Both the position numbers and the translations under genes were made by a program. Under the pieces are notes generated by a model that did not search any database, had not been told where the DNA came from, and was given only the letters and a program-made list of their open reading frames with translations. DNA of 64,000 nt from Heliocidaris erythrogramma (Eukaryota > Echinodermata > Echinoidea > Camarodonta > Echinometridae): contig CM046853.1 of the NCBI GenBank assembly GCA_025617745.1, positions 18,515,036 to 18,579,035 on the forward strand. Direction: 5' to 3'. This document shows, one piece after another, positions 24,801 to 62,637 of the stretch (positions are counted from its first letter, which is position 1; every line of letters starts with the position of its first letter).

Positions 24801-27800
24801 AATAGTCAAAGTGACCAATAATCGATCATTTCATATTGAGCATACTAATAGTAATATCTTAATTTCATCTGGTTCTGTTATACATTTGTTATTCACTTGC
24901 TTTGGGGATAATAAATTTTCATCATTATTTTCAATTGTAACCTTCATTATTATTATCCCTTTTTTGTCGCAACATGCTGCAGCCATTCATTTTAGTTGAT
25001 GTGTTTTGCTCCAGAACTTCATTGTTTGAAGTGCAGCAGTTTTTTTACTCAACAGTAATTTGGTTCTCATTTTTCAAAAACTTATACAGTTTTTCTTGAT
25101 ATATACAGTTTTCTTGATATGTGTAATTCATATTGAATTATGAAAAGGCATTTACCTCAAAATAATGTCAATTTTACATCGCTGTTTTATAATTTTTTTT
25201 AAAGCAGATGTTTCTGCATTTATTAAGAAATCAAATACAAACATTGCATACAATAATGATACAAATCAGAATTGATACAAATAAAGTGTGACAACTGAAT
25301 TACAAAAAGAATATATATTTAGATAATATTGAAATTATGAAGGTAAGTCAATAAATCGGGATAAATGCAGGGGCCAGTTATCATAAGCATTGTTTTATAA
25401 TGCTTTACTTTGAAGTTAAAACTTGACCAAAACAGTCGGTTATACATATTCAATAGTTATTTACTTCAATTAAATACATGACTAGATACTTTAGTCAGAA
25501 ATGATCTGTGTAATGGTTTATGTAAAATATATTGATACTGAATATCTTTTTTCTTTTTTCATTTCCCCTCTCGTAACCATCATCTTCATCATCATCTCCA
25601 TCAAACTAACTTTTCTCTAAATCCTCGTTACCTTCTATCCTACGATTTCCCATCAAATACACTTTTTATTTCATCTTGAACATTTTTTGTCAATGAAACT
25701 CATAATTACTGACGCCATTCCACTATTGATATCATATCATATCAATATTATAATTATCACTCTTTGACATCATAATACCGTCCATATATCTTAAAAACAT
25801 TTCTTTACTATCTAATCTTAACTTCATGATAATCATTGATTTCATGTTTATTATATTTTTTTATTACAACCATTTATTTCATTCTTCCTACAATTGTCTT
25901 CATTTTACTGCCATAATTTTCACTACCTCGTTATCATCGTCATCTTCCTCCATACCCTCCTCTTCCTCCTCGTTATTTCTTCCATCAATGTCGCTGCGCT
26001 TGATCTACCACCATCATTTTGTTCATCGTCATTATCGTCATCATCGTCAACATCGACCTGTATATTGCATCGCATGATATCGCAAATGACAGGTGCTCAT
26101 AACCGATCTCGTCGGGCTCCCAAACATGTAATATTGGAGAAGTTCAGCTGGCAAATCTCGGTCAGAGAGCACATCGGCTACTACCATCCCAATATCTCCA
26201 TCAACGTCACATTCCAGACATCAAAGTTGGGTGATACCATTTCCGGACGAGGTAGTACATGACGCCATTTTTTTTTAATTCCACGTTGCATTTCATCAAA
26301 AGAATGTACAATTAGCATTATCTGAAAAATGAAAAAAGGAGGTCGCAAGCCCAGTTTACTAGTATGATCTTTTAACAGTCTTAAATTGTATTAAATCAAT
26401 AATTTAAATCGAGCTATTACAAACAGGCAATCCGTAAAACTTTTCGGCAGACCTATTTTTGACATATTTTTTTTTGTGTCAATAACACGGTCACCGTCAG
26501 TTTGAAATTGGCGGATACACACTGGGGTTCAGCATACAGGAGTCTCTTGCTTTGCCAGCTCCTACAGCATAGCATGCCCGTTCAAGTTTTGGTTCCTCTT
26601 TTTCCAAAATGGACCTGCCACTGAAGATCATTCTGTATATTTAAAAACAATATATTTTTAAACCAACACTTTCTACAAAGTAAAGCTTTGTTTCTTTTAA
26701 ATAACGTTTTTGCAACCGTAATTATGGGGAGGATGTTGAAATGTTGGCTGCCATGTTGCTTATGAAGTGAACATTCTACTTTTCTGTTAGGTTTGTGGAA
26801 GGCTGGTCTGTTCCGGAGTCGGTTTGAAGACGGGTTTGGTGATCGTTCTGGACCGTATGTACAGCAGTTATTTAGCGATGAGGAAGCTTCCATGAAAGTA
26901 CGCACTGGAAGACTGTATCACTTACGCAATCTCAAGACCGTGTATGACTTAAATGAGGTAAGACCTGTACATTTAGTTTGCACTCATCGTCTGTTGTAAC
27001 GAGGGTGGAGTTAATACAGAGACATGATTTAGATTGTGACCTGGGATTTTTTATTTATTTATTTATCATTTATTTATTTATTTATTTATTTTATTTTATT
27101 TTATTTTATTTATTTCTTTTTATTTATTTATTTATTATTATTATTATTATTCTTCTTCTTATTCTTATTATTGCTATTACTATTTTATTTTATTTTATTT
27201 CATTTTATTTTATTTTTATTTTTTTTGTATTATTATTTAAATTTTTTTGTTTTAATTAATTAATTAATTAATTAATTAATTAATTATTTTTTTATTTTTT
27301 TTTTTATTTTTTTTTTTTTGGGGGGGGGGGGGGAAAGAAGACTACAATGCACAGTGAAATATTATGTGCAAGCAGGGACCCAGGCCTTTTTTCTTTTGTC
27401 TCAATTGTGGTAAATACAGGATGCTTGGTGGTGTAGATCAGTGCACCATAACAAAATTGGGGGCTAGTTCGGTGGTCTAATTTAGATTGCGCGAAAGAAA
27501 TGAACTGTGCAAAATTTAGCGTAAGTAACAGTTATATAAGTGGCCTTCGTGATATATCATATGATATTAGCCACCATATTGATACTTGTTTTTGTTAATG
27601 AATTCAATCTTGAATGTAGCTGTTGCTAAAAATTTTACTTGGTATTCAGTTTCGAGGTGAATTTAATAATCTTTAATAATAAACTGACCTTTTTGTTTTG
27701 ATCCCATTTGGAATAATATGTATTTTTTTTCTAAAACATGATAGTACTATACAGTATTATTAAAGTATTTAATTTGTAAATATATGGGCGATCCCTTTCG

Positions 27801-28400: not shown

Positions 28401-31400
28401 AATTTACATCTATGTACATTTATAAATCACTATGAGAAGGTCGTTGCTTTTATTATCCTTATTTATTCGTAGTCAAGCTTTCGATCTCTCTCTCTATAGA
28501 TGAATCCGACTTCAGAGCACTGTAACTTATGGCGGCCATAACTGGGGGGGGGGGGGGGGGGGGCTTCCAAAGAAGAACAAAAGCACTTTCAATGGGTTAT
28601 GCAATGAGCCAGATGGGTTGCTATGCCAGTGCATAAATTGTCTTTTGTTAGACATACTTGAAGCCCCCCAGTTTGAAATTACCATAAAAAACAGCACCCA
28701 AACCGAATTGCTCTATATATACATGGATATGTAATAGACCACTAAGTGATTCAAATTTCATGCATACTTTTAAAACAAAGGTTCTTGACAACCTGAAAGC
28801 TTGCCAGAGGCTTGTCAGACATAGCAACAAGTAATGTATGCAAAATGGATTCCAAGTATTGTAGTTCATTCATTAATAACAGGTTAATGGAGACCTCGTT
28901 ACTAGGTCCCCAGGAAAGAAACATCCATAAATTTGAATCACTTAGTAAACAGGTCTATTGTGCAAAATCAATCGAATTGAATGAGAGAAATAATATGCGT
29001 AGCTAGCTATAGATTCATTGTTCCTCCTAATGCTTAGGTCAGACGGACATGTACGGATGTCTGCGGATGCATCCGTAAAAAAAAATAATTTCACCCGCAG
29101 AAATTGTTGAAAATCTGCGCAAAAAGCCAAAAAACCACGGTAGATACGCATGAGATACGGATGCAATACGCATGAAATACGCAAATCCTGCGGATGTTCT
29201 GCGGAAGACACCCTTTGGCGGATGTGCCACGCTAGTGTCACTTAAATTCTGCGCAAGATGCGGACTAGATACGGATGTTCTGCGGAAGATACGGAAGTCC
29301 TGCGCACGATACGCATACGCACACGGATGTCGGCTTTCTCCTCGTCCGCAACATCCGCATATATACCGCGGCTTGTGGAGCATCACTTCAGTTGCGATTC
29401 GATCTTTGGAGAGAACACTGCTACTACTACTACTACAGATTTTCAAAATTCACGCTGCGGATCTGCGTATGTCTGCGGATCCTGCGGATTAGGTTACGGA
29501 TGGATACGGACGTTTTACGCAAAAATACGCAAAGATACGGATCAATACGCATGATACGGAACAATACGCAAATTCTACCTAAATTCTGCGCAAAAGACCT
29601 TGCGCGGGAAATTTAAAATAATTTTGAGATTTTCAAAACTTTTTCGCGGAAGACCTCGATTCCTGCGCACTCCCCACGGATTTTTACGGATGCACTTACG
29701 GATGATACGCATGATACGGATTGCTGCGGATTTCTACGGATTTTTACGGATGCACATCCGCAGACATGCGTATCGTGCGTATCTGTCCGTCTGACCATAG
29801 CATTACTGACTTCCTTTACGCAAGATAGTTGTCGATGCTGTAGTATTAGAACAAAAATTCTCATATACAGCCCTGGAAAAAATTATTAGCTTCTGTAAAG
29901 GTACTATAATATGCATTCAAACTAATGAAAATGATTTGTCCTTGTATTTCATTGAATGAATAACAAATTCCAGCAATTGTACCTTGCTTTTATTATTTCT
30001 CTCATTCAATTCGATTGATTCCATGGCTGTATGTGTATATATATATATTTATACATTAACTATTTATTAATTACATTAACTATTTATTAAAATAATGATA
30101 TATTGAGATATTAATATTTGTTTATATTGATAGTTCTTCATTAACAAAATTCAGTTAGGCCTAACCATTCGCTATTGCACCATACACAGGTAGGGTGTAG
30201 TGACTTTCGGTACCTGTGCATAGAGTTCTCACAAGGAGATAACCCCCGTCCCCCATACACGCTCACCATTACATCGCTAACCGGCAGCGCTGTTTTATGT
30301 CAGGAGATTCCCTGTTATGGAAGAAGAGGGGATGGTAAGAGATTATTAACTTTTCAGTATTATGATTCAACTTCTAATCGAGAAACGATTACCTATTTAA
30401 TCTTAAGTTTGATAGAATCTTAGATCTCATTTTCTAATTATTGATTAATGATTCGTCAAATTAGTAGTCCAAAAAGAAGAACTAAAATGAGGACCCATAG
30501 TGAATGAGAGGCGAAAGGCACTATAAAGACGAGGGGAGTGACATTTCTTGATTGGATTGAGATTATACAGGTGTGAAAGGGAAGAAAGAGAAACCATCAA
30601 ATAGTCAAACCGTCGGACCATAATACCCCCATCGACATTAAAATCATGGGGTTTAACGTGTGGAAATTGTTGACAATACGTCTTTAGAGCAGTGGTAGAG
30701 ACTTGCTGATGTCAGCTTTCCCCCCAAGTTCATGCCAGTACAAGGCATGCTTTTTATGTACCGCGACCCTGTGGAATGAATGGGTTTGAGTGTTAGAAAG
30801 AGGTAGGAAGAGGCGGTATAGAAAAGTTAAAAAGCTATTGCTATTTGGGGGCTGTTCACTATATTATTTAGATGAAAGTTGATGAAATTTGATGAGTTTT
30901 CCTTGAACTGATGTTTGGGTTGAAGTTCGATATTTTGTAAACAATGACTATTAAAGAAATATATGGAGTGTGGTGTAGTTTGGGTACCCCCCCCCTTCCC
31001 CAAAAAAGTTTTGTCAGATTTATTTATTTACAATTGATAAAATAATGGCACTTCTAAGCTACAGAAATCCCCTGTAATATTAATATGAAACAAATTAGAT
31101 GTAAAATAGGATTTAGAGCCTATATCCTGGCCAGGATTCTTACCTGCGAATTGTATGTCTTAAACCGTCTCTTCGCTGTGTATGCACGAACCTTTGGAAG
31201 ATTAGCATGATTAGGGTGAGCTAGGCGTAGACAGCGTTAAGCGATATAGCCTGCATTTGGAGTTTCTTTCAGATATTTACATTTCTGTTTGTAGATGCAA
31301 TTGAATGCTTAACTGACTCTTAGAGTGAAATGTTTCCTATGATTATCTACCAAACTTTATTTTCTACAAATAAACTTTGATGACAGAACAATCAGTATGA

Positions 31401-45637: not shown

Positions 45638-45673
<36 letters not shown>

Positions 45674-45787
45674 CATCATTATATCATCACCATCATCATC
45701 ATTATATCATCATCATAATCATCACCACTATCATCATCATCACCATCACCATTATCATCATCGTCACAACCACCATTACCATCATCA

Positions 45788-45818
<31 letters not shown>

Positions 45819-47405
45819 TGTCATCACCATTATCATCATCATATCATACAGAACAATTTACCAGTTCAAGACAGACCACCTAATTCGTCTTCAGTGACGA
45901 ATCCAATGTCTAGTTTGAATTTCTTTCTCCAGCTCTCTTTTTGTGTTAATTTAGTGTACAAAAAAATGGGAGGTAGATGACCATGACTATGAATTCCAAA
46001 GGACACCTATCTTTATTATTTTTTTTCCCTATACGACTAACTTTGCCTATAGAAAATTCATAAGGGGGCATCGAATGTTATCTTTCAGCAAGCTAGTTAA
46101 TATTTGGTATATTTTTCGCAGGTACAGAATTATTGATTTCATCTATATTTACCGGGATCTTCTTACTGCGCACACTTGCGTACCCATTATTTAGCATTGT
46201 GTTAAATGTGCGTATACATTGTCTTAACTGCGCGCAATACTCTACCGGTGTTGTGATGACGTAACACAACCAGCCAGGATGCGCAGCTGAGGTGCGCACA
46301 AACATAACTGATGAACGTCCTAGCAACGGGCATAAATAAAATCCTGTTTTGTGGTTAGAAAAAGGGGCATAATAACAATTAAAATGAAAACTAAATAATT
46401 TTCTTTTATATCATCACTACAGGAGGGACAGGGATCTCGTTCTAAGGGGTCGGACCCCATTTGATTTGCGACAAGTCTGTGAGATTCGCAACAAGCATCC
46501 ATACCTATGTGTTGAAATGGCCAGGAATGCCGCATCGTCCACATCTTTTACTGTTCCAATCAGAGGAGGCATCATAAAAACTTGTAGCGCGTATTCTTGT
46601 AAAGGTAACAATGCTTGCACATATTGAAACACATCAGATAAGTACCTTATCATTGAATCGAATTTCATTTGATGTTGCTGCTTATCTTTTTGTGTTTACT
46701 CATTTGAAACATAACATGATTTTTCATGATAAATATATATATATATAATGTGAAAGAAATGCGAGAATAATGTTGCGTAGCTCAATCAAAGTTCCCCAGA
46801 GCTGTCCTCCCTTTTTGAAATTTTTGCAAAGGCTGAAAAAATGTCTCCGCCGGGAATCGAACCCGGGTCGTTGGCTTAGAACGCCAATGCCTTAACCACT
46901 AGACCACGGAGACGGGTTAGTGGTTTCGGCGACACCAGATTCAATTGACCGACAGATTGACAAATCCTCAACCTTATTAATTAATTCCCCATGTCGGGGG
47001 CAGATGAGTTTTTGAACAAGACAAGCCGCTAGTGCCTCAGCTGGATCCAAGCTTATACTTTGAATACATGTATACATTAGAATAAATTATTATTATTAAA
47101 TTATTATTAAATTAATTAATAAGGTTGAGGATTTGTCAATCTGTCGGTCAATTGAATTTGGTGTCGCCGAAACCACTAACCCGTCTCCGTGGTCTAGTGG
47201 TTAAGGCATTGGCGTTCTAAGCCAACGACCCGGGTTCGATTCCCGGCGGAGACATTTTTTCAGCCTTTGCAAAAATTTCAAAAAGGGAGGACAGCTCTGG
47301 GGAACATTGATTGAGCTACGCAACGTTATTCTTGCATTTCTTTCACATTGTATTTATTTCCACGAGATTTGCCAAAGCTGTTGTATATGTTATTTCCTTA
47401 CAATA

Positions 47406-54400: not shown

Positions 54401-57400
54401 TCATGGTGCATTGGCGTCAATAACATTATCACGACCGCCTTAAAGTTAAGATGAAGGTTTCGACAATTAAGCGCGAGGAACACGATAAGAACTACTTTCG
54501 AAAAATAAACTCTAGGGCAATTTTAAAGGCCTATTGTACTGCCCATAGAAATCAGGTTCGGATTATGTAATACACCATTGTAATGTTCGCACATTTCTAA
54601 AGGTGATAGACAGGGCTATTGAAATTGTCTTGAGTTTATTTTTCGAAAATAGTTTCTATCGTGTTGAGGAGAATTTGAAGTTTGGCGTGCTACCCACATC
54701 GTCCTAGGCACTGCGATTATTTTGGACGTCCTAACAGTGGCGCTTAACAATGAGATAATAAATGCAGTTGTTACAAAGTCCAAATGCTACCAAGGCATTG
54801 GTGTTGCGTATTAGCCATTCGATATCGCCCTATAAAAGACTCCAATCCAAAACGCCAGCGTTACAGCGACTAGAAGAAAAGGCATTTGAATATATATCGA
54901 ACTCAGTCAAAAAATACATGCTCATTAGAAACGATTAACCCTTGATTATATTAAGCGACTCAGCCATTTTTCTAAATCAGAAATCCCTTGCAATTAGTAT
55001 TGTTGATTTGTCTGTAACATGTCTGTGTAGTTGCCGCCCGGTACACTCGCTTGGAAGGCGGCGTAAGTTTTCCGGAGAGTGGAACACTGCTGGACGCTAC
55101 AGTAACTATCCACCCTGCCCCTAATACCAACGAAATCACCGGCGATGGACTGTGGAAAGTGTCGGCTTTCGGCAGTAGAAATGGACAAGGCACAGGCTAC
55201 AGGTAAAATCATTGTCCCACCCTTCAAATATACCAATAAAATGTACATAAAAGTTAATTGTAAGTACACTGTATATCGGTCCCCTAGTGCTTGGTTTTCT
55301 TGGTGTTTTAAGCCCCGCCTCTTCGATGTTATTCATGAGCAACCACCATTGTAGATGTGTAGTTATCAATATAATTTTCGTTGATGTGTGAAACAGGCTG
55401 AATATTATAATTGCATGGTATCGTAATGACGGTAAATGGCGAGGTACGTTACTCGCACCCTTCCCATGGCCACCCCGTCCCAATGGCATTGATTTCCATT
55501 TTAGCAGTCATGTGAAATCAGTATAAAAAGTAACATATTTCTAATTTTTGAATAGCTTTCACGTGTAATACGATGCACTTATTATTAAAGATATTTTGGT
55601 TGGCGATATCGCTCCTTCTGTTTAAAAGAAACCGTTGTCTTAATAATAAACTTCTCTGAACCATTCTTTGTCCTCAATCTTGAAACATTCGCGACAGAAT
55701 TACGAAAAACTATATTCTCCACCAACTGGAGGCGCAACTTGTAACCATGGATTTCCAACATCTAGAAATGATATGAATAACTTTGCAATCCATTCAATAT
55801 TCTGTACTTGAAGAATGTATCTAATAGAAGTCGTCCCCAAAACGGATATATAGATAGACGGTCCACGAGACATGTCCTACAACCGTTTCCTGCAGGGTTC
55901 ACGAGACAGTGACATTGTTGGTCTCGTACGTGGGCTGTCTGTCAGTCAACTTGGATGTATGAGCGCTTTCATGTTCTTTCATATTTCACAAGCGTTTCAT
56001 TCTGTCTGGAGGATCAACCCTTACGGTGCCACCAAGTTTCTAAATAAATATCACAATTAACATTTCATCATAAAATTTCGTTTGGTTCATCTTAATATTG
56101 AAATTGAAATTGAAATTAGAATGGAATTGGTTTACTGTTAAAACTGTTCAATTTACTAAAATTTCAAAATCACAATGATATTTTAATTAAACAAAATTGA
56201 AATGCATTGGATATGAAATTGAAATAATAAATGACATTAAACAACATCATAAATTCATAATATTACTGGTCTTAATATGTTCAATGTTTAAAATCTAGAT
56301 AAACAATATTTTTCATGCAGTTAATAGAAAAATAGTTAGCCAACAGAATGAAATGACATGATAAAAAAGGTAATCCATGATATCAAACTTCACAATTCAT
56401 AAGCCCATTTTGAAGTTTAAGAAGGTTATTAGCACTGGCGTAGCCAGCAGGGGGCACAATGGGGCCATGGTCCCCCTATTCAGCTCCTAAAAAAGCGAAA
56501 GCGAAAGAGCAGGGGAAGTGGGAGAAAAAACCTAAAAAGGCGTCGAACCATTATCTTTCTCTCAAATTTGCTATAAAACGTCAGAGCTTTCGCCCTTCGT
56601 GTGGGAAGGGGGAAAATCCCCCTCCCTGCACACACCCCTGTTACATACAGTGCAGTATTGCGTCCAAATAATTCAGAAGCAGTCCGGGCGTCGAACTAAC
56701 TTTCCTCCTAAAATTGGTGCTACCAGCCGTTATCTTTCTCTCAAATTTGCTGTAAAACATCAGAGCTTTCTCCTCCCTCCCTGCACCCACCTTCTGGGGA
56801 GCACGCTTTACGTGCTCACAACCGCCCCCTAAAATGATAATCCTTCACGTTTGCCCCCCTCCCCCCTATTGGAAAATCCTGGCTACGAAACTGGTTATTA
56901 ATATCTTCCACAAAAGCGTCGAGTGATGAATAACCGCTGCAATGAATTGAAACTGTAGGCCGAAGGGCGAAGACTGGGCGAAGTTTTTTTTGGTTAATAT
57001 TTTTCTTGCAGTGATACATTTTTTGCTTTTCATCCTTCATTTTAGTTTCGATATTTAATTTCCTGGAATTGTGCCATTCTATTTCCAAAGAATAATTAAG
57101 GAAAAAAGAAATCTTAACGTTAGATTCTGTACCATCTTCAATGATCCAATTAGCATTGCCTTTGTCATAAGAACAGTTGGATATTGCTTGGGGGGGATAG
57201 AGCTCTGGAGTTATTTTTTTCTCCAATTTGACTCACAGAAACGGAGAAGTGCGGGTCGATCTTGACAGACGGTCACTTCGTGCATCTTTGCGACCTGGCA
57301 ACTCCATGAGCCTGACAGGCACGTTCGACTTCCCCAACGTCGCTTATCTGGGCTGCAGGGATGATTACAGTTACCTGTGTCTCGAGTTTGCCAAAGGAGA

Positions 57401-60400
57401 CCGTCCGTCCATGACATTTGACATGCAGCCGAGTATAATGTGCCACGAACAGCGTTGTACACGTACGGACAGGCCTACTTCTACCGGTGGTAATCTTACG
57501 TTAATTGTTTGAGTTTGAGTTTGAGTTTGAGTTTATTAACAACACATCACATGAATGACAGTATAATATAAAGAGTAATAATGTTACATGAATACATATA
57601 CATAAAAAAGTACTTATCTACATGAAATGAATATAAATGGATTTACAATAATATGTAGTCATGTTTGTAGATCAATGAATAATCAAGTACGTGATTACAC
57701 TTAATGTCATACAGTTGCACTATTTATACTAAGATATAGTTGCTAATTGGAACTAAAAGTTAGCACAAGTGCTAGTCGAGCCTAATTCCATTCTTTTGGC
57801 AAGATGCTTGCTTTGTTATTTTCTTTATATAAAAATTTTAATTTCATCTTGTATTCACAAATATTAAAAGACAATACAGTGTTTGTGTAGTTTACATTTC
57901 TTGCGGAGAGAAAATATCAAAACCAGTGAATTTTCTTTTCAAATTATATTTACAAAAATAACGTTTGATTAAACGAGAATCTATTTTTACACAAATAAGA
58001 TTCACTATCAGATGTATGAAGTATACAGCAGAGTGAAAATTGAAAACAATTGTATAGCAAATGTAGTATTACAGATTACTTTTGTAAGTACTCCCCCACA
58101 CCTCTATTCCATAAGAGATGTGAGGCTGTATAAAACTCTTGTATAATAACACAAGTATATTCTTTGGTACAAAATATCTTAACTTAAACAGAATGCCTAC
58201 TTTTTGCGTATGCACTTGTTTATTTTCTGATTTTGTGTAAAGGATACATTAGTTATTTTGGTCTGAAAGCATTAACCCTTAATGTACTGTGCGGAGGGGG
58301 GGGGGGGGGGGGGTGATGGGGCTGCATGTTCCCAATAGACAAATTTCTCTGCGTATTTCAAACCGCTGCGCCGCATTTCCGCCACCTGCTATTTTTCTTT
58401 TTTGACACCAAACTTAAGAACTTTATCGGTCACCTGTATAAATGGCTGGTCGCATTTTCCCGATAACGATAACAAGATTTTTCATTCAAGGTACACCTTA
58501 GAGCTAACAAGACACGAACATACTCACACGTATACTCGCCATATAATAGTTATCGTTATCGGCCTAATGTGACCTGGGGGTGTTTCATAAAGCTGTTCGT
58601 AAAGTTACGCATGACTTTACGAACGACTGGAACATATTATTCTTGGGAGCTATACTAATCAGATTCTCAATCATTTAGATCAAGAACTGATCACCAGTCG
58701 TGCGTAAAGTCGTGCGTAACTTACGAACAGCTTTATGAAACACCCCCAGCTCTTTACACTTGACTTTCCCTGTCTCTATTCAATCACCTTACTGGGCTAT
58801 GCTGTCTTCAGTTGTGTTATGATAGATCGTCAGCGTTTGTTGTGTTATGCTTGCATTTTTTTCGCAAAGCACGTCATATTGAAAAAAAATTATAAGTTTG
58901 TCTTGCATACACTGATTCGTTTTTATCTGTGATTTTATATAAATGTCATATGTAAATAATGTGTTGTATATACAGACATGTACATATACATGTATATACA
59001 GAAACACGCAGGGAGTGATTTTTATGCCAATGTAGGTTTATTTTTTTGTGCAAGACCAATAACATTTTATTGAATTATTTGCAATTTGCTATAAACATTA
59101 AAAGCTATAGATTCAAAAGCATTATTTTCTTGAATATATTTAGCGACTCAGCCATTTTCCTGAATCAAAATGCCCTTGCGATAAAGCAATAAACTGAATA
59201 CATATGCTTACATGAACCTGTCTATCTTCCGTCTTTGTAGGCAGTAATGATCCTGTCGCCAGCTACACGAACATGGGCGTCAGAGTAGAATATCCGAATG
59301 ATGGAACACGTTTGAGTGCTTCACTAAGCATCACTCCAGCCTCCGATACTGCCCGCATCGTTGGCGATGGACTGTGGAGAGTGTCAGCTTTTGGTAGTAG
59401 AAACGCACAAGGCACAGGCAACAGGTATAAAGGCTATAGATACCACATTTAAAATATCTATACCAATAAAATCTCTAAAAATAATCATAATCATGTTGGT
59501 CCTCTGCAGTTTATACTGTAAAGGCTTTGGTTTCTAGGTGTTATAGGTTCCACCTCTTTGATAATAGTACAACGGCAAACACCATTGTGGATGCGTAAAT
59601 TGTCGCGAAAGGGCCACCGCACACTACACGATCCATCTGCGATCCGATTTTCGAAGAAATCGCAATTTCATTGAATAGGGAAAGTTATATGAATAATTAT
59701 TATCTTTTAGTTTGAAGGTCTGATTAATGATATGAATGCTTGAAATCGAACATTAGGGATTACAAGCCTTCTATTCGGAGGAAAGTTCAAATCGGCTTCA
59801 AATCACCGACAGGCGCATTTGCCTTCAATATAATCCTTCAATCTAATATTATTGAGATTCTGTACCTTTAGTGATCTGGTTAACGTTGCTTTTGTTTCTT
59901 ATAATTCAATAAAAGGTATGAGAAAGTTTGGTAATTACACAGGAAAAAGTTAGAATAGTCCTTGGGTTCTTTTTCTCTGATTGGACTCACAGAAACGGAG
60001 AAGTCCCGGACATTCTCGACAGACAGTCACTGAGAGCAGTTATGGAATCTGGCCGCACCATGGAACTGACAGGGGAATTCGATTTTCCCAACATCGCTGA
60101 TCTGGGCTGCAGCAATGACTACCGGTATCTGTGTTTCGAGTTTGCCAAAGGAGACCGTCCGTCTATGAGATTCACCATGCAGTCGAATGTAATGTGCCCA
60201 CAACAAAACTGTAGGCCTGACCCTTCTACCGGTGGTGAGCTCAAATGACCTTCACGTTTATTATGTGAAGTCGAACATCCACTTCCCAGTTTCTAAAATT
60301 TTAAACATTTTTATATATATCGATAGTGTATTTTTATAATGGCGATAATAATAAGATAATAATAATATTATATACTCGATTTATGTAGCCCCTGATACTT

Positions 60401-62637
60401 CTATGATATTTCTATTAAAGCGCTTTGCAGACATAAGTTATTACCAGGGTCATCTTTAATGGCTTGCCTACACACAATATGTATGCACCTTCTCAACTCA
60501 CCTGGGGAACTTTCCAGCAAGGCGTCTTTTGCAGACGCTCACAATGCTGAATGCCGATCAAACCACAATGACATTCGTATCCTACCGGGTACCCATTAAA
60601 CACCTGGGTGGAGAGGAGCAATGTAGATTAAATGCTTTGCTCAAGGACTACGACACCTCTACTACGAAATATGCCGGAGATGATTAGTTTGCCAAAATAT
60701 TGGTAAATTCTGAGGGCGGGGGTGGGGGCTGCATCTTCCCCAACCCAATGCCTCTTAGGCCTGAAATAAAAAATTCAAAATTGGCATTGCCTCGTTTAAT
60801 AGGATATTAAATGCTAGAGAGTTAAGAGAGTGAATAATTTTTTTATTGTTCTGATTTTGCATAGTCTAGGATACGAATTTAAAATGATATGATACCACTG
60901 ATAAAATTGAAAGTTGTAGGACCTGCACACCCTTGAGGGATTTTATATCTAGAGTTTTGAATTGAAGACGGCGAAAATGAGTGGTAGAATAACGAGTGAT
61001 TAAATAGAAATATCGAGATTCATTTATTTGGCTTGATTTATTTTATTTTTCTTCATAATCTTTTTTCAAATTTTCTTTGCAAACTGATAAAACATAATAA
61101 CGGGTCCTATTACTGGCGAAAGGCCTACGGATTCGGTCTAATCACAAGTTGCTTTCACATTTATGGAGACTGCATTTAAACTTGCAATGCCTCTTTATAG
61201 AACTGATATTTGTTGGGCATATTTTGAATATAGTTTAGCGACATGGAACCTCTAGCACACAGAACGAAATATATTCTGTTGGTGATTGGTACCCTTTAAT
61301 AGGCGGAGGTAATACTGGAGGTAATACTGGAGGTAATCGACTAAGAGAAGCCAGGTACACAAATGTGGAACCCGACGTGACTATTCCCACTCGAGGTACA
61401 CGTGTGAGGGCCAATTTACGCGTAACCCCTGATTCTGATACTGACCTGATCGGTGGCGACGGACTGTGGAGGGTGGCAGCTTTTGGCAGTTCAAACTCAC
61501 ATGGCCAAGGACAAAGGTAATTGTTATATTTTATCGTTTCTATTGGGGATTCTTGTACAAGTGTATTTTGCTGCATCCCTTGACTTATTAAAAAAAAAAT
61601 CGAAATAAATTTAAAAATACAAATGCAAATATGATACCGTACAGTTTTGATTTGCGCCCAGAGCTTTTAATAATAGTAATAGTAATGATAATGATAATAA
61701 TAATAATAATAATAATTTTAATAATTTATTAAAAATAATGATATTCATAGTAAGTTTGATTAAAATAATAGAATTTATAATAATAATGATAATAATAATG
61801 ATAATAATAATAACAATAATAATAATATATAACATTTCTAAATATAGTGTTTAGTACAAAAGTAGATGTTGGTCAGGTTCCGTTGAATTTGGGTTAAACA
61901 TAACAAGTTAGTAACAATCCGAAAGTGCTTTGAAATGTCGCCAAGTTTCCAATCTTCCGAACTAACTAGATTTGTTTACCGGACGAAAGGGCAGTCTAAT
62001 ATCTTTAGATACTTACATGTATATATTTTTAAATATTTTTGACTGTGTGATCATAGTTGTATTATGTAAATATAATTTAAAAGAACCAAAATATTGTTGA
62101 AATTCTACCCCCCCCCCAAAAAAAAAAAAAAAAAAAGGAAAAAAAAAAAAAGGAGTGATATCCCGACATGAATACTGGAAGAAATAAAAAATGTCACTTG
62201 TAAAATATCGGTCTGAAAAGTGGCCAGAACGCTCACTGAACCGACATCGTTGGGCTAGTGGACTGTCGGGGTCGTGGACTTTCTTTCCCGTGGGCTGTAA
62301 CAAAAAAAAAATCGACACAGATATTGATAATAGCCCATAAGCGGGACAAAACAACAATTTTTTTTAAAAATTCTGCTCACCCATTGGATTCACAGAAGCG
62401 GCGAAGTCTCGGACATTCTGGATTATCTGGCACGTCGCAAAACTCTTCAACCTCCCAGACGAGGAGATGACAACATCATGGAATTGAGCGGCTCTTTCAG
62501 TTTTCCTAACGTCGCGGATCTGGGCTGCTCAAATGCCTACCGGTATTTGTGTTTCGAGTTCGACAAAGGAGAAAGCCCTTCTCCCGATTTTACAATGCGA
62601 TCATCTATCCGATGCACAAACCCACCGTGTGTCGGGG
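1732..62637 (+). CDS. Secreted Kazal / tandem novel-module protein, whole gene model (15 exons to a stop, 6 more probable)
   Basis: Predicted secreted multidomain protein; I do not recognise a named orthologue. Exons: 1732-1816, 19644-19835, 26093-26251, 26791-26957, 30190-30334, 31474-31629, 32223-32422, 32780-33002, 33486-33917, 34471-34733, 34975-35152, 36026-36275, 46423-46604, 51351-51794, 52275-52867; these give 1222 codons plus stop. Probable further exons: 55031-55202, 57239-57489, 59241-59424, 59993-60234, 61303-61516, 62396-62637, continuing off the window. Every domain-boundary intron is phase 1; introns inside modules are phase 0, 1 or 2, and each flanking pair matches. Order: signal peptide, Kazal, two furin-type sites, module 1, Kazal, modules 2-7, with 8-10 beyond. 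Each module has an LWR-x-G-x-F block and a GC-x6-C-x-EF-x-KGD block plus two late Cys, suggesting two disulfides. The Kazal domains suggest protease binding; the role of the new module is unknown. Exons are individually well supported; linkage of modules 8-10 to this gene is inferred. Confidence 0.8.
3924..4083 (+). repeat. tRNA-derived SINE
   Basis: The 5' part has a tRNA-like pol III promoter: A-box-like TGGCTCAGTGGTGGAG (from about 3929) and B-box-like GGTTCGAAATC (from about 3973). It is followed by a non-tRNA body beginning near GGCATTAATCC. The same A box, B box and GGCATTAAT body order recurs at 8300-8535, which supports a shared SINE family. Confidence 0.65.
5551..5870. repeat. Foldback MITE with GGTGTTTCATAA ends (copy 1)
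   Basis: The left end is GGGGTGTTTCATAATGCTGT followed by TCGTAAAGTTACGCG. The right end is the near-exact inverted complement, terminating in TGAAACACCCC. The inverted ends extend for about 45 bp around a 230-bp unrelated centre. A second, shorter member lies at 58576-58747. Confidence 0.75.
6480..6830. repeat. Tandem array, about 95-bp unit, four copies
   Basis: Each unit contains GAAGGTATTGGGTTCGAAC-like sequence, then CACGCCTCTGACATCA, a GGCTAGACATATTCTA block and CTCACCC. Copies begin near 6485, 6578, 6673 and 6770, and a detached partial fifth copy lies at about 7016-7062. GGGTTCGAAC resembles a pol III B box, so the unit may derive from the tail of a tRNA-related SINE; this is a guess. 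Confidence 0.7.
6838..6995. repeat. Dispersed repeat, copy of the 54.5-kb MITE
   Basis: Shares ACTACTTTCGAAAAATAAA, a CCAGGTTCGGATTA-like block and ATTGTAATGTTCGCACATTT with 54484-54660. Its left inverted end is intact. The right end is degraded where the 95-bp repeat resumes, so it is probably a truncated or overwritten copy. Confidence 0.65.
8300..8535 (+). repeat. tRNA-derived SINE, second member
   Basis: A tRNA-like head (GTGGTGGAGCTTCACGCACT, then GGGTTCGAACTCC as B box) is followed by AGGCAAGGCATTAATTTAC and a GTATGGTCGGCTACGACCAG hairpin. Organisation matches the SINE at 3924-4083, but the body is diverged. Confidence 0.65.
8806..8929. repeat. Short foldback MITE with GGGAGCGTTTCATCAAG ends
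   Basis: GGGAGCGTTTCATCAAG at the left is matched by CTTGATGAAACGCTCCC at the right around an interior of about 90 bp. No coding capacity. No second copy was seen in the window. Confidence 0.7.
10211..10880 (-). mobile_element. Degenerate, 5'-truncated CR1-like LINE (minus strand)
   Basis: Read on the minus strand from 10876, the translation begins QKRALRVIAKIHFRAHADI and continues through FMYKYVQKSLPQ. It then runs through an in-frame stop (TAA, at the position usually read as Tyr in the HNYNTRN motif) into NTRNPQ, IRYRGHVLWNGL and a SLQSFKRN block. This is the C-terminal end of a CR1/L2-type reverse transcriptase. The element ends in a (GAAAT)n tail, seen as (ATTTC)n at 10211-10258. Two or more stops and the missing 5' part make it dead. 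Confidence 0.8.
10905..11295 (+). repeat. Probable LINE 3' end with TAAA-type tail
   Basis: The stretch contains a short inverted pair, CCAGCCAATGTGG...CCAGCCATTGGCTGG, and ends in CGGATGGAATAAAATAAATTAATAAATAAAT, which resembles the 3' tail of a LINE. No reverse transcriptase is present, so the assignment is tentative. Confidence 0.4.
15043..16328. repeat. Pair of inverted repeats 1.2 kb apart
   Basis: GTCACATGACCTCATGTCAG followed by CCCGAAAACGGAG at about 15043-15076 is repeated in inverted orientation at about 16282-16328. The interior has no gene; it includes a T22-like run near 16220-16243. This may be the remnant of a foldback element or of two oppositely inserted copies. Confidence 0.5.
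16919..16989. repeat. Hairpin-forming inverted repeat
   Basis: CTGTTGAGAGCCAGAAG and its complement CTCTGGCTCTCAGCAG flank a 40-nt loop. It is too short to assign to a transposon family. Confidence 0.55.
17749..19489. mobile_element. hAT-like non-autonomous transposon, 1.74 kb
   Basis: The termini are CAGTGCTGTA and its complement TACAGCACTG, flanked by an imperfect 8-bp target duplication (ATATACAG at 17741-17748, ATATATAG at 19490-19497). Subterminal DNA at both ends is a run of GAGTCC hexamers, in inverted orientation relative to each other (17762-17826 and about 19368-19478). The interior has no transposase. It contains a palindrome (18674-18715) and a short tandem of a 19-bp TTTGCCACATTTGACTT unit (18851-18926). 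The right end lies 154 bp upstream of the Kazal 1 exon. Confidence 0.75.
19644..19835 (+). CDS. Exon 2: Kazal domain 1 and furin-type site
   Basis: A complete follistatin/agrin-type Kazal domain. Cys 1-6 occur in DCSSLVVC, KGVCASDGNYYHTLC, the C-x6-C step to HEC, and DKNDC. C3-C4 spacing is 10 and C4-C5 spacing is 6. The acceptor is TATATAG, weak in pyrimidines; the donor is GAG|GTAAGT, phase 1. An earlier GT after 19810 would leave phase 0 and was rejected. The exon ends RGKRERR, giving a furin-like R-E-R-R site directly after the domain. Kazal domains usually inhibit serine proteases or bind ligands; which applies is unknown. Confidence 0.85.
20120..20480. repeat. GAT/GGT-type imperfect trinucleotide microsatellite
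   Basis: Runs of GATGATGAT interrupted by GGT, GAC and TAT variants. The Met-rich open frame through it is a product of the repeat. Confidence 0.8.
20917..21150. repeat. Foldback element with GTCGCCAGCGGGGG-type ends
   Basis: TGCATGGGCGTCGCCAGC on the left is matched by GCTGGTGACGGCACTGCA on the right. The interior is a run of C-rich and A-rich blocks including TTTGTGTGCCCCC, which recurs in the foldback ending near 38177. There is no coding content. Confidence 0.65.
26093..26251 (+). CDS. Exon 3: second furin-type site and start of module 1
   Basis: Phase 1 to phase 1, 53 codons. It starts GAHNRSRRAPKH, supplying an R-S-R-R furin-type motif, then FSWQISVREH, NISINVTF (an N-glycosylation sequon) and GDTISGRG. 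It corresponds to the N-terminal third of the repeated module. The acceptor ATGACAG has a weak pyrimidine tract. The donor is GAG|GTAGTA; the carried G joins the next exon to read G-L-W-K. Confidence 0.8.
26791..26957 (+). CDS. Exon 4: middle of module 1
   Basis: Starts GLWKAGLF, the conserved Trp block, then SGPYVQQLFSDEEASMK and ends VYDLNE. The acceptor TTTCTGTTAG and donor GAG|GTAAGA are good. It enters in phase 1 and leaves in phase 0. This is the only copy with an intron directly in front of the LW block. Confidence 0.85.
27046..27333. repeat. TTTA/TTA/TTAA low-complexity tract ending in G14
   Basis: A run of TTTA, TTTTA and ATT repeats, then (TTAA)8-9 at about 27256-27284, poly-T and a G14 run (27320-27333). 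The hydrophobic open frames here are artefacts of composition. Confidence 0.85.
27893..28293. repeat. Long foldback, about 165-bp diverged arms
   Basis: The left arm (27893-28055) reads GTAGAAAATAAAGTACACA, ACACACGAGGAGCATGTTTT, GATAGTTTTACATGACT, then GGAAATACAGTAATATT. The right arm (about 28125-28293) is its complement in reverse order with scattered mismatches. The central spacer is about 70 bp. No coding capacity. Mismatches between the arms suggest age. Confidence 0.75.
29028..29805. repeat. GC-rich foldback transposon made of CGGAT/CGCAA motifs
   Basis: Inverted ends TAATGCTTAGGTCAGACGGA (29028-29047) and TCCGTCTGACCATAGCATTA (29786-29805). The interior is packed with TACGGATG, TGCGGAT, TACGCAT and GCGCAA motifs in both orientations. 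GC content is clearly above the surroundings, so several spurious open frames overlap in it. No transposase is recognisable. Confidence 0.7.
30190..30334 (+). CDS. Exon 5: end of module 1
   Basis: Enters phase 0 and leaves phase 1. Reads VGCSDFRYLCIEFSQGDNPRP and ends VLCQEIPCYGRRGDG, so it carries all four conserved Cys of the module. The acceptor CACACAG has a weak pyrimidine tract; the donor is ATG|GTAAGA. Confidence 0.85.
30335..31473. other. Intron 5, no features seen
   Basis: Ordinary AT-rich intron. C9 near 30988-30996 is the only simple sequence of note. Confidence 0.5.
31474..31629 (+). CDS. Exon 6: Kazal domain 2
   Basis: A complete 52-codon phase 1-1 exon. Reads ACHRPCPDDGEPVCGDDG, ISYSSSCEIDNIVRC and YFGEC. 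C1-C2 spacing is 3, C2-C3 is 7, C3-C4 is 10 and C4-C5 is 7, one longer than in Kazal 1 and than is usual for the agrin/follistatin class. The acceptor TTTCTAG is strong; the donor is TAG|GTAAGT. It sits between modules 1 and 2. Confidence 0.85.
32223..32422 (+). CDS. Exon 7: first half of module 2
   Basis: Enters phase 1, leaves phase 0. Reads FWSAGVVSHE, then VAGTNLWRMGVFGS, NQNGTGPKFGYIPQ. Unlike module 1, there is no intron before the LW block. The donor is CAG|GTTAGA. Confidence 0.85.
32780..33002 (+). CDS. Exon 8: second half of module 2
   Basis: Begins ILEGKSASQT and carries FRFDVATIGCNEFNFMCMEF, with TRNDDAEPFF in place of the usual AKGD-x-P-x-P-x-F, and ends SCRAAPCDPTG. The acceptor TTTTTTGCAG is strong; the donor is CAG|GTAAGT, phase 1. 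Confidence 0.88.
33272..33401. repeat. Small inverted-repeat element in intron 8, copy 1
   Basis: CAGTCACACCAA with AGACCGACACCAGACCGAC on the left, and AGTCGGTTTGAAGTCGGTTT with GGCAGTGTAATCG on the right, are imperfect inverted complements. A related element lies at about 33972-34133. Confidence 0.55.
33486..33917 (+). CDS. Exon 9: module 3, complete in one exon
   Basis: A 144-codon phase 1-1 exon holding an uninterrupted module. Reads VTWGLTVVTA, ISPDSDVIRGRDLWRVGLFG, RFNYVRQLLDPAEASLPVG, FDIMKLGCSKFRYICLEIAK, GDEPQPDF and FCKSVACPG. It is the best template for the module consensus. The acceptor TTTTCTGCCAG is strong; the donor is CAG|GTGAAT. Confidence 0.92.
33972..34133. repeat. Inverted-repeat element, copy 2, with a palindrome inserted
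   Basis: CATCACACCGGCGAGACCAAC on the left and TAGGTCGGTTTGGAGTC to TCTGACTGAGG on the right resemble the 33.3-kb element. The left half is interrupted by the 36-bp palindrome TCAAGGAAGTACTAGGC...CTAGTACCTCCTTGA (34003-34038). Confidence 0.5.
34471..34733 (+). CDS. Exon 10: first half of module 4
   Basis: Enters phase 1, leaves phase 0. Reads LDWGLSLVEHHIGS, VSISVSIATS, LNGTNLWKLGLFVS, GQYREQILPEAAASIPVRPG. The start is set by the only in-phase AG after the upstream stops (ACAAAG, 34469-34470), which follows a CTTCTCCCTTG tract. The donor is GGG|GTAAGT. Confidence 0.85.
34975..35152 (+). CDS. Exon 11: second half of module 4
   Basis: Begins MPLDYMNVPSFVDLTSMGC, then FNYVCISFAKGDSPDPDFDL and ends VSCKGIACQG. 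The acceptor TTTCCCCAG is strong; the donor is AAG|GTGAGT, phase 1. All four Cys are present. Confidence 0.9.
36026..36275 (+). CDS. Exon 12: first half of module 5
   Basis: Reads VNWESEYNPN, ITMTLTPDTGSDTIQGRNLW, RMGVYASDSP, KYAYQQNILDQTAMQTPSR. Enters phase 1 and leaves phase 2 (CAG|GTAAGA), unlike the phase 0 internal introns of modules 1, 2 and 4. Its partner exon is 10.1 kb away at 46423. Confidence 0.85.
36870..38177. repeat. Nested foldback carrying a LINE-tail insertion
   Basis: CAGTGGCGGATTTCAGGGG on the left and AATCCTGGATCCGACCCTG on the right are imperfect inverted ends with G/C-rich flanks. The interior is rich in CATCCG and CGGATG motifs. It is split by a 333-bp insertion (37165-37497) that starts with (AAGTTC)n and is bounded by a direct duplication GTAAATC (37158-37164 and 37498-37504), as expected for a minus-strand LINE 3' fragment. 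Confidence 0.6.
38680..40880. repeat. Satellite array, about ten 215-240-bp units
   Basis: Unit starts marked by AAAATCCATGYCAGATTCGT lie near 38680, 38904, 39127, 39350, 39581, 39822, 40060, 40275, 40491 and 40713. Each unit has a purine run (AAAAAAAGGGGGG, of variable length), GCTAGCAGCGCCCTCAGGTGG, CTAGCAAAACTAGTGAAA and GGAAGGGGATGGGTTCG. Units differ by point changes and homopolymer length, so the array is not recent. The open frames recurring once per unit are repeat artefacts. Confidence 0.9.
43595..45210. repeat. Long element with direct repeats 1.46 kb apart
   Basis: The block at about 43595-43780 (TTTCTCAAAATCATCTCATT, GTCATCAGGCCTAT, AGGCGCCATTTTGTG, TATCTTCATAAC) recurs in the same orientation at about 45040-45205. 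Inside, TGTTATAGCTGAGAC occurs twice (about 44388 and 44611). No coding region is recognisable; this could be a long tandem unit or a decayed LTR-like element. Confidence 0.55.
44755..44821 (+). repeat. tRNA-like sequence / SINE head
   Basis: TTGGTATATTGGTTAAAGCA (A-box-like) and GGTTCGATCCCC (B-box-like) are spaced as in a tRNA, followed by TTAATTTTTTTTTTTTTT, a pol III-type terminator run. The anticodon arm does not pair cleanly, so a pseudo-tRNA or SINE is more likely than a working gene. Confidence 0.5.
45240..45850. repeat. Long imperfect ATC/ACC microsatellite with an internal TA run
   Basis: About 600 bp of ATCATCACC-type repeats interrupted by (TA)15-like DNA at about 45640-45669. 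It generates long His/Ile-rich and Met/Asp-rich open frames on the two strands, neither of which is a gene. Confidence 0.9.
46423..46604 (+). CDS. Exon 13: second half of module 5
   Basis: Enters phase 2, leaves phase 1. The AG from exon 12 plus G completes an Arg codon. Reads RGRTPFDLRQVCEIRNKHPY, LCVEMARN and ends TCSAYSCKG. The first Cys is in V-C instead of G-C, and the KGD triplet is lost; otherwise the four-Cys pattern holds. The acceptor is ATCACTACAG; the donor is AAG|GTAACA. Confidence 0.82.
46843..46913 (-). tRNA. tRNA-Arg (anticodon UCU)
   Basis: A 71-nt cloverleaf: acceptor GTCTCCG/CGGAGAC, D arm GTCT...AGGC, anticodon stem TTGGC/GCCAA with loop GTTCTAA, and T arm CCGGG-TTCGATT-CCCGG. 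The anticodon is TCT. A-box and B-box sequences are intact, no intron is present, and an ATTTTTT pol III terminator follows at once on the minus strand. It is identical to the plus-strand copy. The D-arm sequence (GGTCTAGTGGTTAAGGC) is of the kind also seen in Glu/Asp tRNAs, so identity rests on the anticodon alone. Confidence 0.85.
47183..47253 (+). tRNA. tRNA-Arg (anticodon UCU), inverted copy
   Basis: The same 71-nt sequence as 46843-46913 in the opposite orientation, with intact cloverleaf and internal promoter boxes and an ATTTTTT terminator immediately downstream. The pair is divergent, and the inverted-repeat arms continue past both genes. Confidence 0.85.
47495..48606 (+). mobile_element. 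Penelope-like retroelement fragment flanked by inverted copies of its terminal repeat
   Basis: From 48018 the translation reads LEVTDEDAYLEMSDVVVRL and continues through TSVHYKPTDSHAYLNY, SSHPPACKNSIPFSQLSC and FFKQRGYPDRIL. This is the distal part of a Penelope-type reverse transcriptase. The catalytic core upstream is missing and the reading stops in a CT repeat (48370-48420). Inverted arms of about 185 bp (47495-47687 and 48424-48606) carry TGCGCATTGTTGCGCTTATC and a CTGATGA...GAAA motif. No endonuclease domain is present. The element is dead. Confidence 0.75.
48536..48558 (+). ncRNA. Hammerhead-ribozyme-like core in the Penelope terminal repeat
   Basis: CTGATGA, then A-GCCC-TAT-GGGC (a perfect 4-bp stem) and GAAA match the hammerhead core layout, apart from one extra A before the stem. 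The inverted copy is at 47543-47565 (minus), and a partial copy (GGGCGAAAATTCG) lies at about 48638-48650. Penelope-like elements are known to carry hammerhead motifs in terminal repeats. Stems I and III could not be confirmed by eye, so activity is unproven. Confidence 0.45.
51351..51794 (+). CDS. Exon 14: module 6, complete in one exon
   Basis: A 148-codon phase 1-1 exon. Reads MQWLLSPITN, IRVQLIVMPEPATDYIHGSG, LWRVGLYSSG, NQYVRQILNEYEASKEL, MEGIGCGDKRYVCLEFAKGD, RPRPNFNLP and ECHLFRCKG. The acceptor is CTAACACAG; the donor is AAG|GTGGGT. It shares the uninterrupted structure of module 3. Confidence 0.92.
52275..52867 (+). CDS. Exon 15: Pro/Arg-rich spacer, module 7 and stop
   Basis: Starts with a spacer of alternating Pro with Arg, then Asn/Asp (TPRPRPRPRP, NPNPDPNPNP). 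Module 7 follows: FRWTVQPVTF, IRAWITPSATTDFIHGDG, LWRLGIFGSS, AYRRQVLTRQDANAPM, LWRVGCSDIGFLCVEFAKGD, APHPNFNIP and SCQPTSCHRE. The frame closes RPSGWYNAN and TAG (52865-52867). A phase 1 donor-like GTTGGT after 52847 sits where other modules end (…PSG|GT), so the tail may be a retained-intron end used by a short isoform. Confidence 0.9.
52894..52899 (+). terminator. Polyadenylation signal AATAAA
   Basis: A canonical AATAAA begins 27 nt after the stop codon of exon 15. This supports a real transcript end here, with a very short 3' UTR. Confidence 0.6.
53038..53593. repeat. Foldback MITE with TTAAAGGCATTGGCTA ends
   Basis: TTAAAGGCATTGGCTA at the left and TAGCCAATGCCTTTAA at the right are inverted complements; the TTAA/TTA at each edge may be the target site. 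The 550-bp interior has no reading frame of note. Confidence 0.75.
54484..54660. repeat. MITE with ACTACTTTCGAAAAATAAAC ends
   Basis: AACTACTTTCGAAAAATAAAC and its inverse GTTTATTTTTCGAAAATAGT flank a 130-bp interior containing ATTGTAATGTTCGCACATTT. The left end and interior are shared with 6838-6995. Confidence 0.75.
55031..55202 (+). CDS. Exon: first half of module 8
   Basis: Enters phase 1 and leaves phase 2 (CAG|GTAAAA). Reads VAARYTRLEGGVSFPES, ATVTIHPAPNTNEITGDG, LWKVSAFGSRNGQGTGYR. The Gly after LWR/K-x has become Ser, which separates modules 8-10 from 1-7. The acceptor is CTGTGTAG. The upstream partner is either the cryptic donor in exon 15 or an unseen first exon. Confidence 0.82.
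56434..56896. repeat. Foldback with CTGGCGTAGCCAGCAGGGGG ends
   Basis: Left ACTGGCGTAGCCAGCAGGGG and right AATCCTGGCTACGAAACTGG are imperfect inverted ends. The interior has two direct copies of TTATCTTTCTCTCAAATTTG with AAAACRTCAGAGCTTTC (about 56551 and 56732). Non-coding. Confidence 0.65.
57239..57489 (+). CDS. Exon: second half of module 8
   Basis: Enters phase 2, leaves phase 1. Reads NGEVRVDLDRRSLRASLRPG, LTGTFDFPNVAYLGC, YLCLEFAKGDRPSMTF and MCHEQRCTRTDRPTSTGG. The acceptor is TTTGACTCACAG, also used by modules 9 and 10 in near-identical form. The donor is GTG|GTAATC. Confidence 0.88.
57507..58260 (-). mobile_element. Degenerate LINE reverse-transcriptase fragment (minus strand)
   Basis: A (TCAAAC)n tail on the minus strand (57507-57532) is followed upstream by decayed coding sequence. 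One stretch (about 58080-58145, minus) reads PHISYGIEVWGSTYKSN, a motif typical of the C-terminal reverse-transcriptase region of CR1/Jockey-type LINEs. Frameshifts and stops are frequent, and there is no 5' part. Confidence 0.6.
58296..58313 (+). repeat. G18 homopolymer
   Basis: One of several long G or C runs in the introns of this gene; others are listed in the findings. Confidence 0.95.
58576..58747. repeat. Foldback MITE with GGTGTTTCATAA ends (copy 2)
   Basis: GGGGGTGTTTCATAAAGCTG followed by TTCGTAAAGTTACGC is mirrored at the right by GCGTAACTTACGAACAGC and TTTATGAAACACCCCC. The arms make up about half of the 172-bp element. Same family as 5551-5870. Confidence 0.8.
59241..59424 (+). 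CDS. Exon: first half of module 9
   Basis: Enters phase 1, leaves phase 2. Reads VASYTNMGVRVEYPNDGTRL, SLSITPASD, IVGDGLWRVSAFGSRNAQG and TGNR. The acceptor GTCTTTGTAG is good; the donor is CAG|GTATAA. Very similar to the first half of module 8, including flanking intron sequence. Confidence 0.88.
59993..60234 (+). CDS. Exon: second half of module 9
   Basis: Enters phase 2, leaves phase 1. Reads NGEVPDILDRQSLRAVMESG, MELTGEFDFPNIADLGC, DYRYLCFEFAKGDRPSMRF and MCPQQNCRPDPSTGG. The acceptor is GACTCACAG; the donor is GTG|GTGAGC. Length (242 nt) is identical to the corresponding exon of module 10. Confidence 0.9.
60416..60670. repeat. Probable dispersed repeat
   Basis: The segment with GCGCTTTGCAGACATAA, CCGGGTACCCATTAAACACC, TGGGTGGAGAGGAGCAATG and TTGCTCAAGGAC resembles a repeat common in aquatic animal genomes. 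No structural ends were identified, so the call rests on resemblance only. Confidence 0.4.
61303..61516 (+). CDS. Exon: Gly/Asn-rich spacer and first half of module 10
   Basis: Enters phase 1, leaves phase 2. Starts with three near-identical GGAGGTAATACT units coding GGN-T repeats, then ARYTNVEPDVTIPTRGTR, LRVTPDSDTDLIGGDG, LWRVAAFGSSNSHGQGQR. The acceptor is CCTTTAATAG; the donor is AAG|GTAATT. The coding minisatellite is a likely site of length variation. Confidence 0.85.
61675..61830. repeat. AAT/GATA-type microsatellite
   Basis: Runs of (AAT)n with GATAATGATAAT interruptions in the intron of module 10. No gene. Confidence 0.9.
62396..62637 (+). CDS. Exon: second half of module 10
   Basis: Enters phase 2, leaves phase 1. 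Reads SGEVSDILDYLARRKTLQPP, MELSGSFSFPNVADLGC, AYRYLCFEFDKGESPSPDF and IRCTNPPCVGG. The acceptor is GGATTCACAG; the donor is GGG|GTAAGA. A phase 1 donor and no stop imply at least one more exon beyond the window. Confidence 0.88.

Follow-up and report, generated by a model that had tools for sequence, protein, structure and literature searches.

Homologous modules of a tandem array in Heliocidaris erythrogramma carry internal introns at different sites, very probably inserted after the modules had been copied

Background

It has long been asked where new introns arise and why, and cases with clear polarity are scarce. The question is raised here by a tandem array of homologous modules in the window, by which we mean the whole stretch of 64,000 nucleotides analysed here (C1:18515036-18579035, where C1 is contig CM046853.1 of the Heliocidaris erythrogramma genome; 1.06 Gb in 26 contigs). 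An earlier note made from the letters of this stretch had claimed that copies of the same module are interrupted at different positions and that this points to repeated intron gain, or to gain plus loss, after duplication, with the intronless copies as an ancestral or derived control. How did homologous copies come to be cut at different places, and were introns inserted into whole copies or lost from copies that had been cut before?

Results

Ten homologous modules in one array

Ten homologous modules of about 140 residues, m1 to m10, lie on the + strand between position 26093, the first base of m1 exon 1, and position 62637, where m10 exon 2 ends; a six-frame search with a profile of the ten found no eleventh module inside the window on either strand. 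Profile search and exon calls gave the following exons.

26093..26251, + strand, m1 exon 1
26791..26957, + strand, m1 exon 2
30190..30334, + strand, m1 exon 3
32223..32422, + strand, m2 exon 1
32780..33002, + strand, m2 exon 2
33486..33917, + strand, m3, single exon
34471..34733, + strand, m4 exon 1
34975..35152, + strand, m4 exon 2
36026..36275, + strand, m5 exon 1
46423..46604, + strand, m5 exon 2
51351..51794, + strand, m6, single exon
52275..52867, + strand, m7, single exon with the stop codon 52865-52867 at its end
55031..55202, + strand, m8 exon 1
57239..57489, + strand, m8 exon 2
59241..59424, + strand, m9 exon 1
59993..60234, + strand, m9 exon 2
61303..61516, + strand, m10 exon 1
62396..62637, + strand, m10 exon 2

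The homology among the uncut copies is far beyond chance (tblastn E about 1e-33 for m6 and m7 and about 1e-20 for m3 and m7). The second half of m5 is the weakest part, with E 0.005 by itself in tblastn, but the complete m5 scores 88.6 bits against a profile from which it was left out. Identity is 48-60% within the group of m8, m9 and m10 and 21-38% among the ten modules outside this group. The two halves of the module agree in the relationships that they show (r 0.61, p 0.003, for m1-m7); the copies are therefore not shuffled halves, which rules out half-module shuffling as their origin.

A confident structure model of the module (pLDDT 92.9, seven strands) is a beta-sandwich that would be Ig-like. 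Its fold neighbours Brr2, GH2, a TRAP subunit, integrin and ApaG were not accepted as kin, the sandwich fold being a common one. Neither Pfam nor NCBIfam holds a named family for the module. In a Pfam scan of the six module-bearing frames of the window, five were without a family at E up to 1 and the m7 frame gave two rows (Trypan_PARP and Band_7_1), both far below the cut-offs; no profile of the fibronectin type III or immunoglobulin superfamilies and no hemocyanin domain matched these frames. A search of the PDB gave no sequence relative at E up to 10, and a scan of bacterial, archaeal and viral contigs confirmed no relative. The module has conserved cysteines of its own.

Exon borders and gene ends

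All introns called at the boundaries of m1-m10 and of the Kazal exons are in phase 1, m7 being without one on its 3' side, and the module has the symmetrical 1-1 form of an exon-shuffling unit, with phase 1 introns on both sides. These linker introns are in place also beside the uncut m3, m6 and m7. Three further exons were recognised.

1732..1816, + strand, probable signal-peptide exon (MGDGLIFHLVCLACLTLTIAYDVPNNDI) with a phase 1 donor
19644..19835, + strand, Kazal domain exon 1, phase 1-1 (Pfam Kazal_2, E 5.6e-6; splice scan)
31474..31629, + strand, Kazal domain exon 2, phase 1-1 (Pfam Kazal_1, E 3.4e-8)

The first of these is the sole + strand candidate in 1-63500 at the thresholds used (the - strand control gave two overlapping candidates), and the gene likely begins with it. 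The Kazal exons, one ahead of m1 and the other between m1 and m2, pass their profile cut-offs (Kazal_2 with 26.8 bits against 22.8 at 19646-19834, Kazal_1 with 33.8 bits against 21 at 31443-31784). The in-frame stop of m7 at 52865-52867 is followed 27 bases later by AATAAA at 52894, and m8 onward thus belongs to another gene or is reached by skipping m7. A signal-peptide first exon for m8 onward was sought in 52868-55030 and was not found there. The array may therefore comprise two transcripts or genes, m1-m7 and m8 onward, or one gene in which m7 is an alternative last exon. The m7 exon starts with a proline-rich linker (PRPRPNPNPDP; 52275-52390), and glycine-rich linkers are present in m10 and in m11, which lies beyond the window.

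Internal introns

Seven of the modules (m1, m2, m4, m5, m8, m9 and m10) carry eight internal introns at six sites, in all three phases; m3, m6 and m7 are single exons. The best-scoring splice pairs are as follows.

26252..26790, + strand, intron m1a, phase 1, between GR and GLW, before LW
26958..30189, + strand, intron m1b, phase 0, between NE and VGC, before VGC
32423..32779, + strand, intron m2, phase 0, behind YIPQ, after FGYIPQ
34734..34974, + strand, intron m4, phase 0, behind VRPG, after PVRPG
36276..46422, + strand, intron m5, phase 2, between TPS and R, 10147 nt
55203..57238, + strand, intron m8, phase 2, after GTGYR
59425..59992, + strand, intron m9, phase 2, after GTGNR
61517..62395, + strand, intron m10, phase 2, after GQGQR

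Module by module, these calls agree with the earlier note, which had left m3, m6 and m7 without an internal intron and had placed the others, in the same phases, before the LW block and before V-G-C in m1, after FGYIPQ in m2, after PVRPG in m4, after QTPSR in m5 and after GTGYR in m8-m10, a motif that reads in this way in m8 and differs in m9 and m10 at the same place; the at least five distinct sites that it had counted are six. Each call was compared with other framed GT-AG pairs up to 90 nt from the donor and up to 120 nt from the acceptor, by means of a profile built without the tested module and a simple splice matrix with frequencies that were not derived from this species. In all eight introns the called pair scores best, with a margin of at least 10.6 bits.

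In the ten-module alignment the sites follow one another in the order m1a (phase 1), m8-m10 (phase 2), m2 (phase 0), m5 (phase 2), m4 (phase 0) and m1b (phase 0), and across 36 alignment settings no two of them coincide except those of m8, m9 and m10, which share an identical place and phase 2. The distance between the m4 and m5 sites is 7 nt in the alignments of ten modules and 13-25 nt in those of 52. Mapped on the predicted structure, the six sites follow model residues 43, 61, 68, 79, 82 and 97, mostly outside regular strands. At the m2 site, CAG is also read in five copies that have no intron there (m1, m3, m4, m6 and m7), an observation in line with insertion at a junction sequence already in place and also with exact removal. 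Introns m8 and m9 have a 74-nt stretch in common that is 74% identical, and no other window introns resemble each other. Since m8, m9 and m10 have all three kept one site at their level of identity and the introns of m8 and m9 still share sequence, an intron position is stable once it is present.

Several other features lie in or near these introns. Intron m5 contains a 9.5-copy array of a 223-nt unit (38677-40825), and intron m1b contains a 0.4-kb self-complementary hairpin (27892-28291) and an element whose ends are perfect inverted repeats of 30 nt (28966-30020). The intron after m5 holds a pair of predicted tRNA-Arg(TCT) genes, 46842-46913 (-) and 47183-47254 (+), which are oppositely oriented, and a transposase fragment (Pfam DDE_3, E 2.4e-10) is found at 63073-63561 (-).

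Copies elsewhere in the genome

A profile search of the flanks, 98 kb before the window and about 118 kb after it, found no module in the 98 kb before it and four in continuation of the array after it: m11 with one intron (phase 2), m12 with two (both phase 0), m13 with none and m14 with one (phase 1). Querying the genome with the whole of m7 gave at least 111 matches, duplicates included, at least 11 of them at the window locus and at least 100 elsewhere (at least 59 at C1:64.70-65.02 Mb, 33 at C5:42.5-42.9 Mb, 4 on C20, 2 on C11 and 1 each on C2 and C4). The 1-1 module thus occurs at several loci, on contigs C1 (two loci), C2, C4, C5, C11 and C20. Among the matches listed elsewhere, 97 of 100, a count that takes in near-identical duplicates, span the intron interval (query position 39 or lower to 121 or higher) in one stop-free frame; the three exceptions are a match starting at 68, another starting at 47 and one with an internal stop.

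From the C1:65 Mb region, 41 profile rows in 13 loci were obtained. We retained 34, which represent 19 distinct modules, and left out 7 with too little coverage, five being cut by the end of a locus and two representing one place with the frame broken in the first half; this place sits in a duplicate that is 99.7% identical to an unbroken copy. All 19 distinct modules, and 15 more sampled from C1, C2, C4, C5, C11 and C20, are uncut across the intron interval. The best acceptor is in phase 1 in 18 of the 19 (c1 being the exception), as is the best donor (here the exception, c6, is a near tie). At C1:64709964-64711886 adjacent matches fall in a common open frame of 318 or 314 aa; the linker intron itself seems to be absent there, the reverse of the pattern in the window. 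In the regions C1:64.79-64.91 Mb and 64.99-65.02 Mb matches of equal score occur in pairs, of opposite orientation in some cases and of like orientation in others. A comparison of two loci gave 99.7% identity, and the pairs would stem from duplication in the assembly or from a recent segmental duplication.

A query with a whole module is biased towards uncut copies, and it missed both of the split modules that a half-module query found on C4. With the second half of m6 as query, 43 matches were obtained, 8 at the window locus and 35 elsewhere, on C1 and C4 only; 33 of these 35 lie in frames of at least 145 aa, and the two in shorter frames, both at C4:6.18-6.20 Mb, were read as split modules, d1 (phase 1) and d2 (phase 0), with the uncut neighbours d3, d4 and o051. 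The second half of m9 gave 16 matches, 3 at the window locus and 13 at C1:65 Mb, the latter all in frames of at least 145 aa; a first-half query gave 4 matches and was too weak to help. The modules chosen from other loci come mostly from whole-module matches, and the half-module queries reached C1 and C4 only, so that C5, C20, C2 and C11 are represented by whole-module matches alone. Split copies outside the window locus are probably undercounted, and the count is biased to uncut ones. In the six introns beyond the window the called junction again scores best, with margins of 14.3, 22.3, 16.0, 32.7, 9.5 (d1) and 5.4 (d2) bits.

Gain and loss on the module tree

Of the 52 modules read altogether, 40 have no cut in the intron interval and 12 are split. 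The 14 introns of the split modules occupy 12 sites, ten of which belong to the fourteen modules m1-m14 of the window locus and at least two to the C4 locus. In 36 of 36 alignments of the 52 modules the 12 sites differ, and only those of m8, m9 and m10 coincide. The nearest pairs are m1b/m14 (median 2 nt, range 2-5), m2/d2 (3 nt, 3-6, same phase), m1a/m12a (7 nt) and m5/d1 (7 nt); a test of the m1-m14 sites, ten in number, showed no excess over random sites of pairs within 2, 7 and 13 nt.

The check proposed in the earlier note, an alignment and tree of the ten modules on which gains and losses are mapped, favours gains only weakly: six events are needed with gain alone and at least 16 with loss alone, the best likelihoods (lnL -13.58 for gain-only and -16.69 for loss-only) are about three units apart, and polarity depends on the root, a model with loss fitting better when the root is placed inside m8-m10. 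The polarity became strong through the addition of 42 further modules of the same genome. The 52-module tree requires 12 events with gain alone and 97 losses with loss alone (62-106 over 300 bootstrap trees), in support of the claim of repeated gain after duplication. Many deep nodes of the module trees, the ten-module tree included, have 20-60% support, and the pairing of m2 with m5, at 85 in the ten-module tree, is not found in the larger trees. The modules of the window locus do not form one clade, as m12 and m13 group with copies of other loci and m14 stands apart. The strongest single case is the sister pair m12 and m13 (bootstrap 97), the one with two introns that are absent from the other and from the 40 uncut modules.

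Split copies are commonest at the window locus, with two more at one C4 locus and a count elsewhere that is biased to uncut copies. Fisher tests gave p 0.001 (5/8 split against 2/35) and p 3.5e-6 (10/14 against 2/38), on counts that ignore shared descent and include near-identical duplicates and, in the second test, on a biased choice of modules. The two split copies on C4 led us to drop the idea that introns are confined to the window locus, and a P of 1.5e-4 for all gains falling on window-locus branches, computed before these copies were found, was set aside.

Discussion

Most copies read uncut and the split ones are each cut at a place of their own, and the introns were therefore very probably inserted after the copies had been made. 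We infer, with high though not complete confidence, that an uncut 1-1 exon was multiplied and that introns were then inserted independently into single copies. The module, about 140 residues on one exon flanked by phase 1 introns, could in this 1-1 form be multiplied in frame, by tandem duplication as well as by exon shuffling; the family would have spread to about a hundred copies in the genome, mostly uncut exons, and spliceosomal introns would afterwards have been inserted independently, one copy at a time. Of the two roles that the earlier note had offered for the intronless copies, the ancestral one is the most likely. The view of gain after duplication needs one refinement, in that the intron of m8-m10 was gained before these three copies split and not every gain thus follows the last duplication. 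No trace of a mechanism of insertion was found in the eight window introns. Mobile-element insertion and tandem duplication were considered as routes of gain and rejected for these eight introns, in which the longest match between the two ends is 4-5 nt; the elements within introns m1b and m5 do not lie at the intron ends.

But could the ancestral module have contained many introns, of which each copy lost a different set? The small likelihood gap among the ten window modules and the probable undercount of split copies at other loci would allow for it. However, 97 losses would be needed in place of 12 gains, the ancestor would have been in pieces a few bases long, given sites that lie 2-7 nt apart, and every removal would have had to be precise and to leave the linker introns in place. 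Intron removal through spliced cDNA tends to take neighbouring introns too, and the linker introns kept beside the uncut m3, m6 and m7 speak against this route. We therefore regard loss from a many-intron ancestor as very unlikely. It is hardly to be expected either that the true junctions converge and that the splice calls are wrong, which we hold to be very improbable. The donor of m1a is weak (3.3 bits), as are several acceptors, and the calls rest on sequence and on a splice matrix not fitted to this species; against this, the called junction outscores every other framed GT-AG pair compared in all 14 introns, by the margins given above, and the module halves are hundreds to thousands of bases apart, so that an intron is needed. 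Judged in this way, the called internal junctions are probably those really used.

A few ancestral introns might also have slid, so that near sites (m1b/m14, m2/d2, m1a/m12a and m5/d1) represent the same intron. These four pairs lie at medians of 2, 3, 7 and 7 nt and one is in the same phase, and a review of intron gain, in the passages drawn on here, cites one later study in which sliding is important in some lineages (PMC3488318). The nearness of the ten sites of m1-m14 is, however, no more than chance would give, three of the four pairs differ in phase, and a shared site would entail 12 losses for m2/d2, 7 for m1b/m14, 15 for m5/d1 and 13 for m1a/m12a; the same passages report a broad statistical analysis without evidence for sliding by more than one base pair (PMC3488318). 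Sliding is thus quite unlikely to account for the pattern, although some of the near pairs could be one site blurred by the alignment.

Did insertion strike mainly the window locus, with its ten insertions in fourteen modules? It is possible, but on balance doubtful, that it did and that a property of the locus, and not of the sequence, decides where introns are gained; within this tentative reading, germline transcription, open chromatin and relaxed size limits might be candidate properties. The clusters elsewhere, bar one on C4, are uncut as far as they were searched, the half-module query having reached C1 and C4. The concentration of gains at this locus, if true, is what could lift the finding. 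In one genome, dozens of homologous exons set out very probably from the same state and a dozen took introns at a dozen places, a data set in which site preference, locus effect and timing can be tested with no need to compare species.

The pattern is already in print for other repeat proteins, and what we describe is a good data set and not a new phenomenon. The cited review states that gains exceed losses in paralogous families and that ancient paralogues share no intron positions, and also that gain is hard to detect and that loss prevails at short distances in vertebrates (PMC3488318); the cases in the passages used here are whole genes, whereas ours are modules of a single array. In R3 receptor tyrosine phosphatases the FN3 repeats are mostly encoded by one exon with phase 1 flanks (1:1), some with an extra intron in phase 0, 1 or 2 (PMC5336234). 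They resemble the present modules in their 1:1 exons and in the extra introns of any phase in some of them, and differ from them as FN3 repeats of membrane receptors, the module described here being without a Pfam family and having its own conserved cysteines. Closest in outline are the molluscan hemocyanin genes, in which, according to the excerpts cited, tandem paralogous domains are separated by phase 1 'linker' introns and the 'internal' introns, which may be in any phase, vary from domain to domain and are read as independent gains, an accumulation that the authors call gene-specific (PMC7931591, PMC8599328). Both systems combine phase 1 linker introns with domain-specific internal introns and lead to the conclusion of independent gain. 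The molluscan domain as described there is, however, an unrelated oxygen carrier compared across species, whereas here about 50 copies of a module from a predicted secreted, Kazal-bearing Ig-like repeat protein are compared within one genome.
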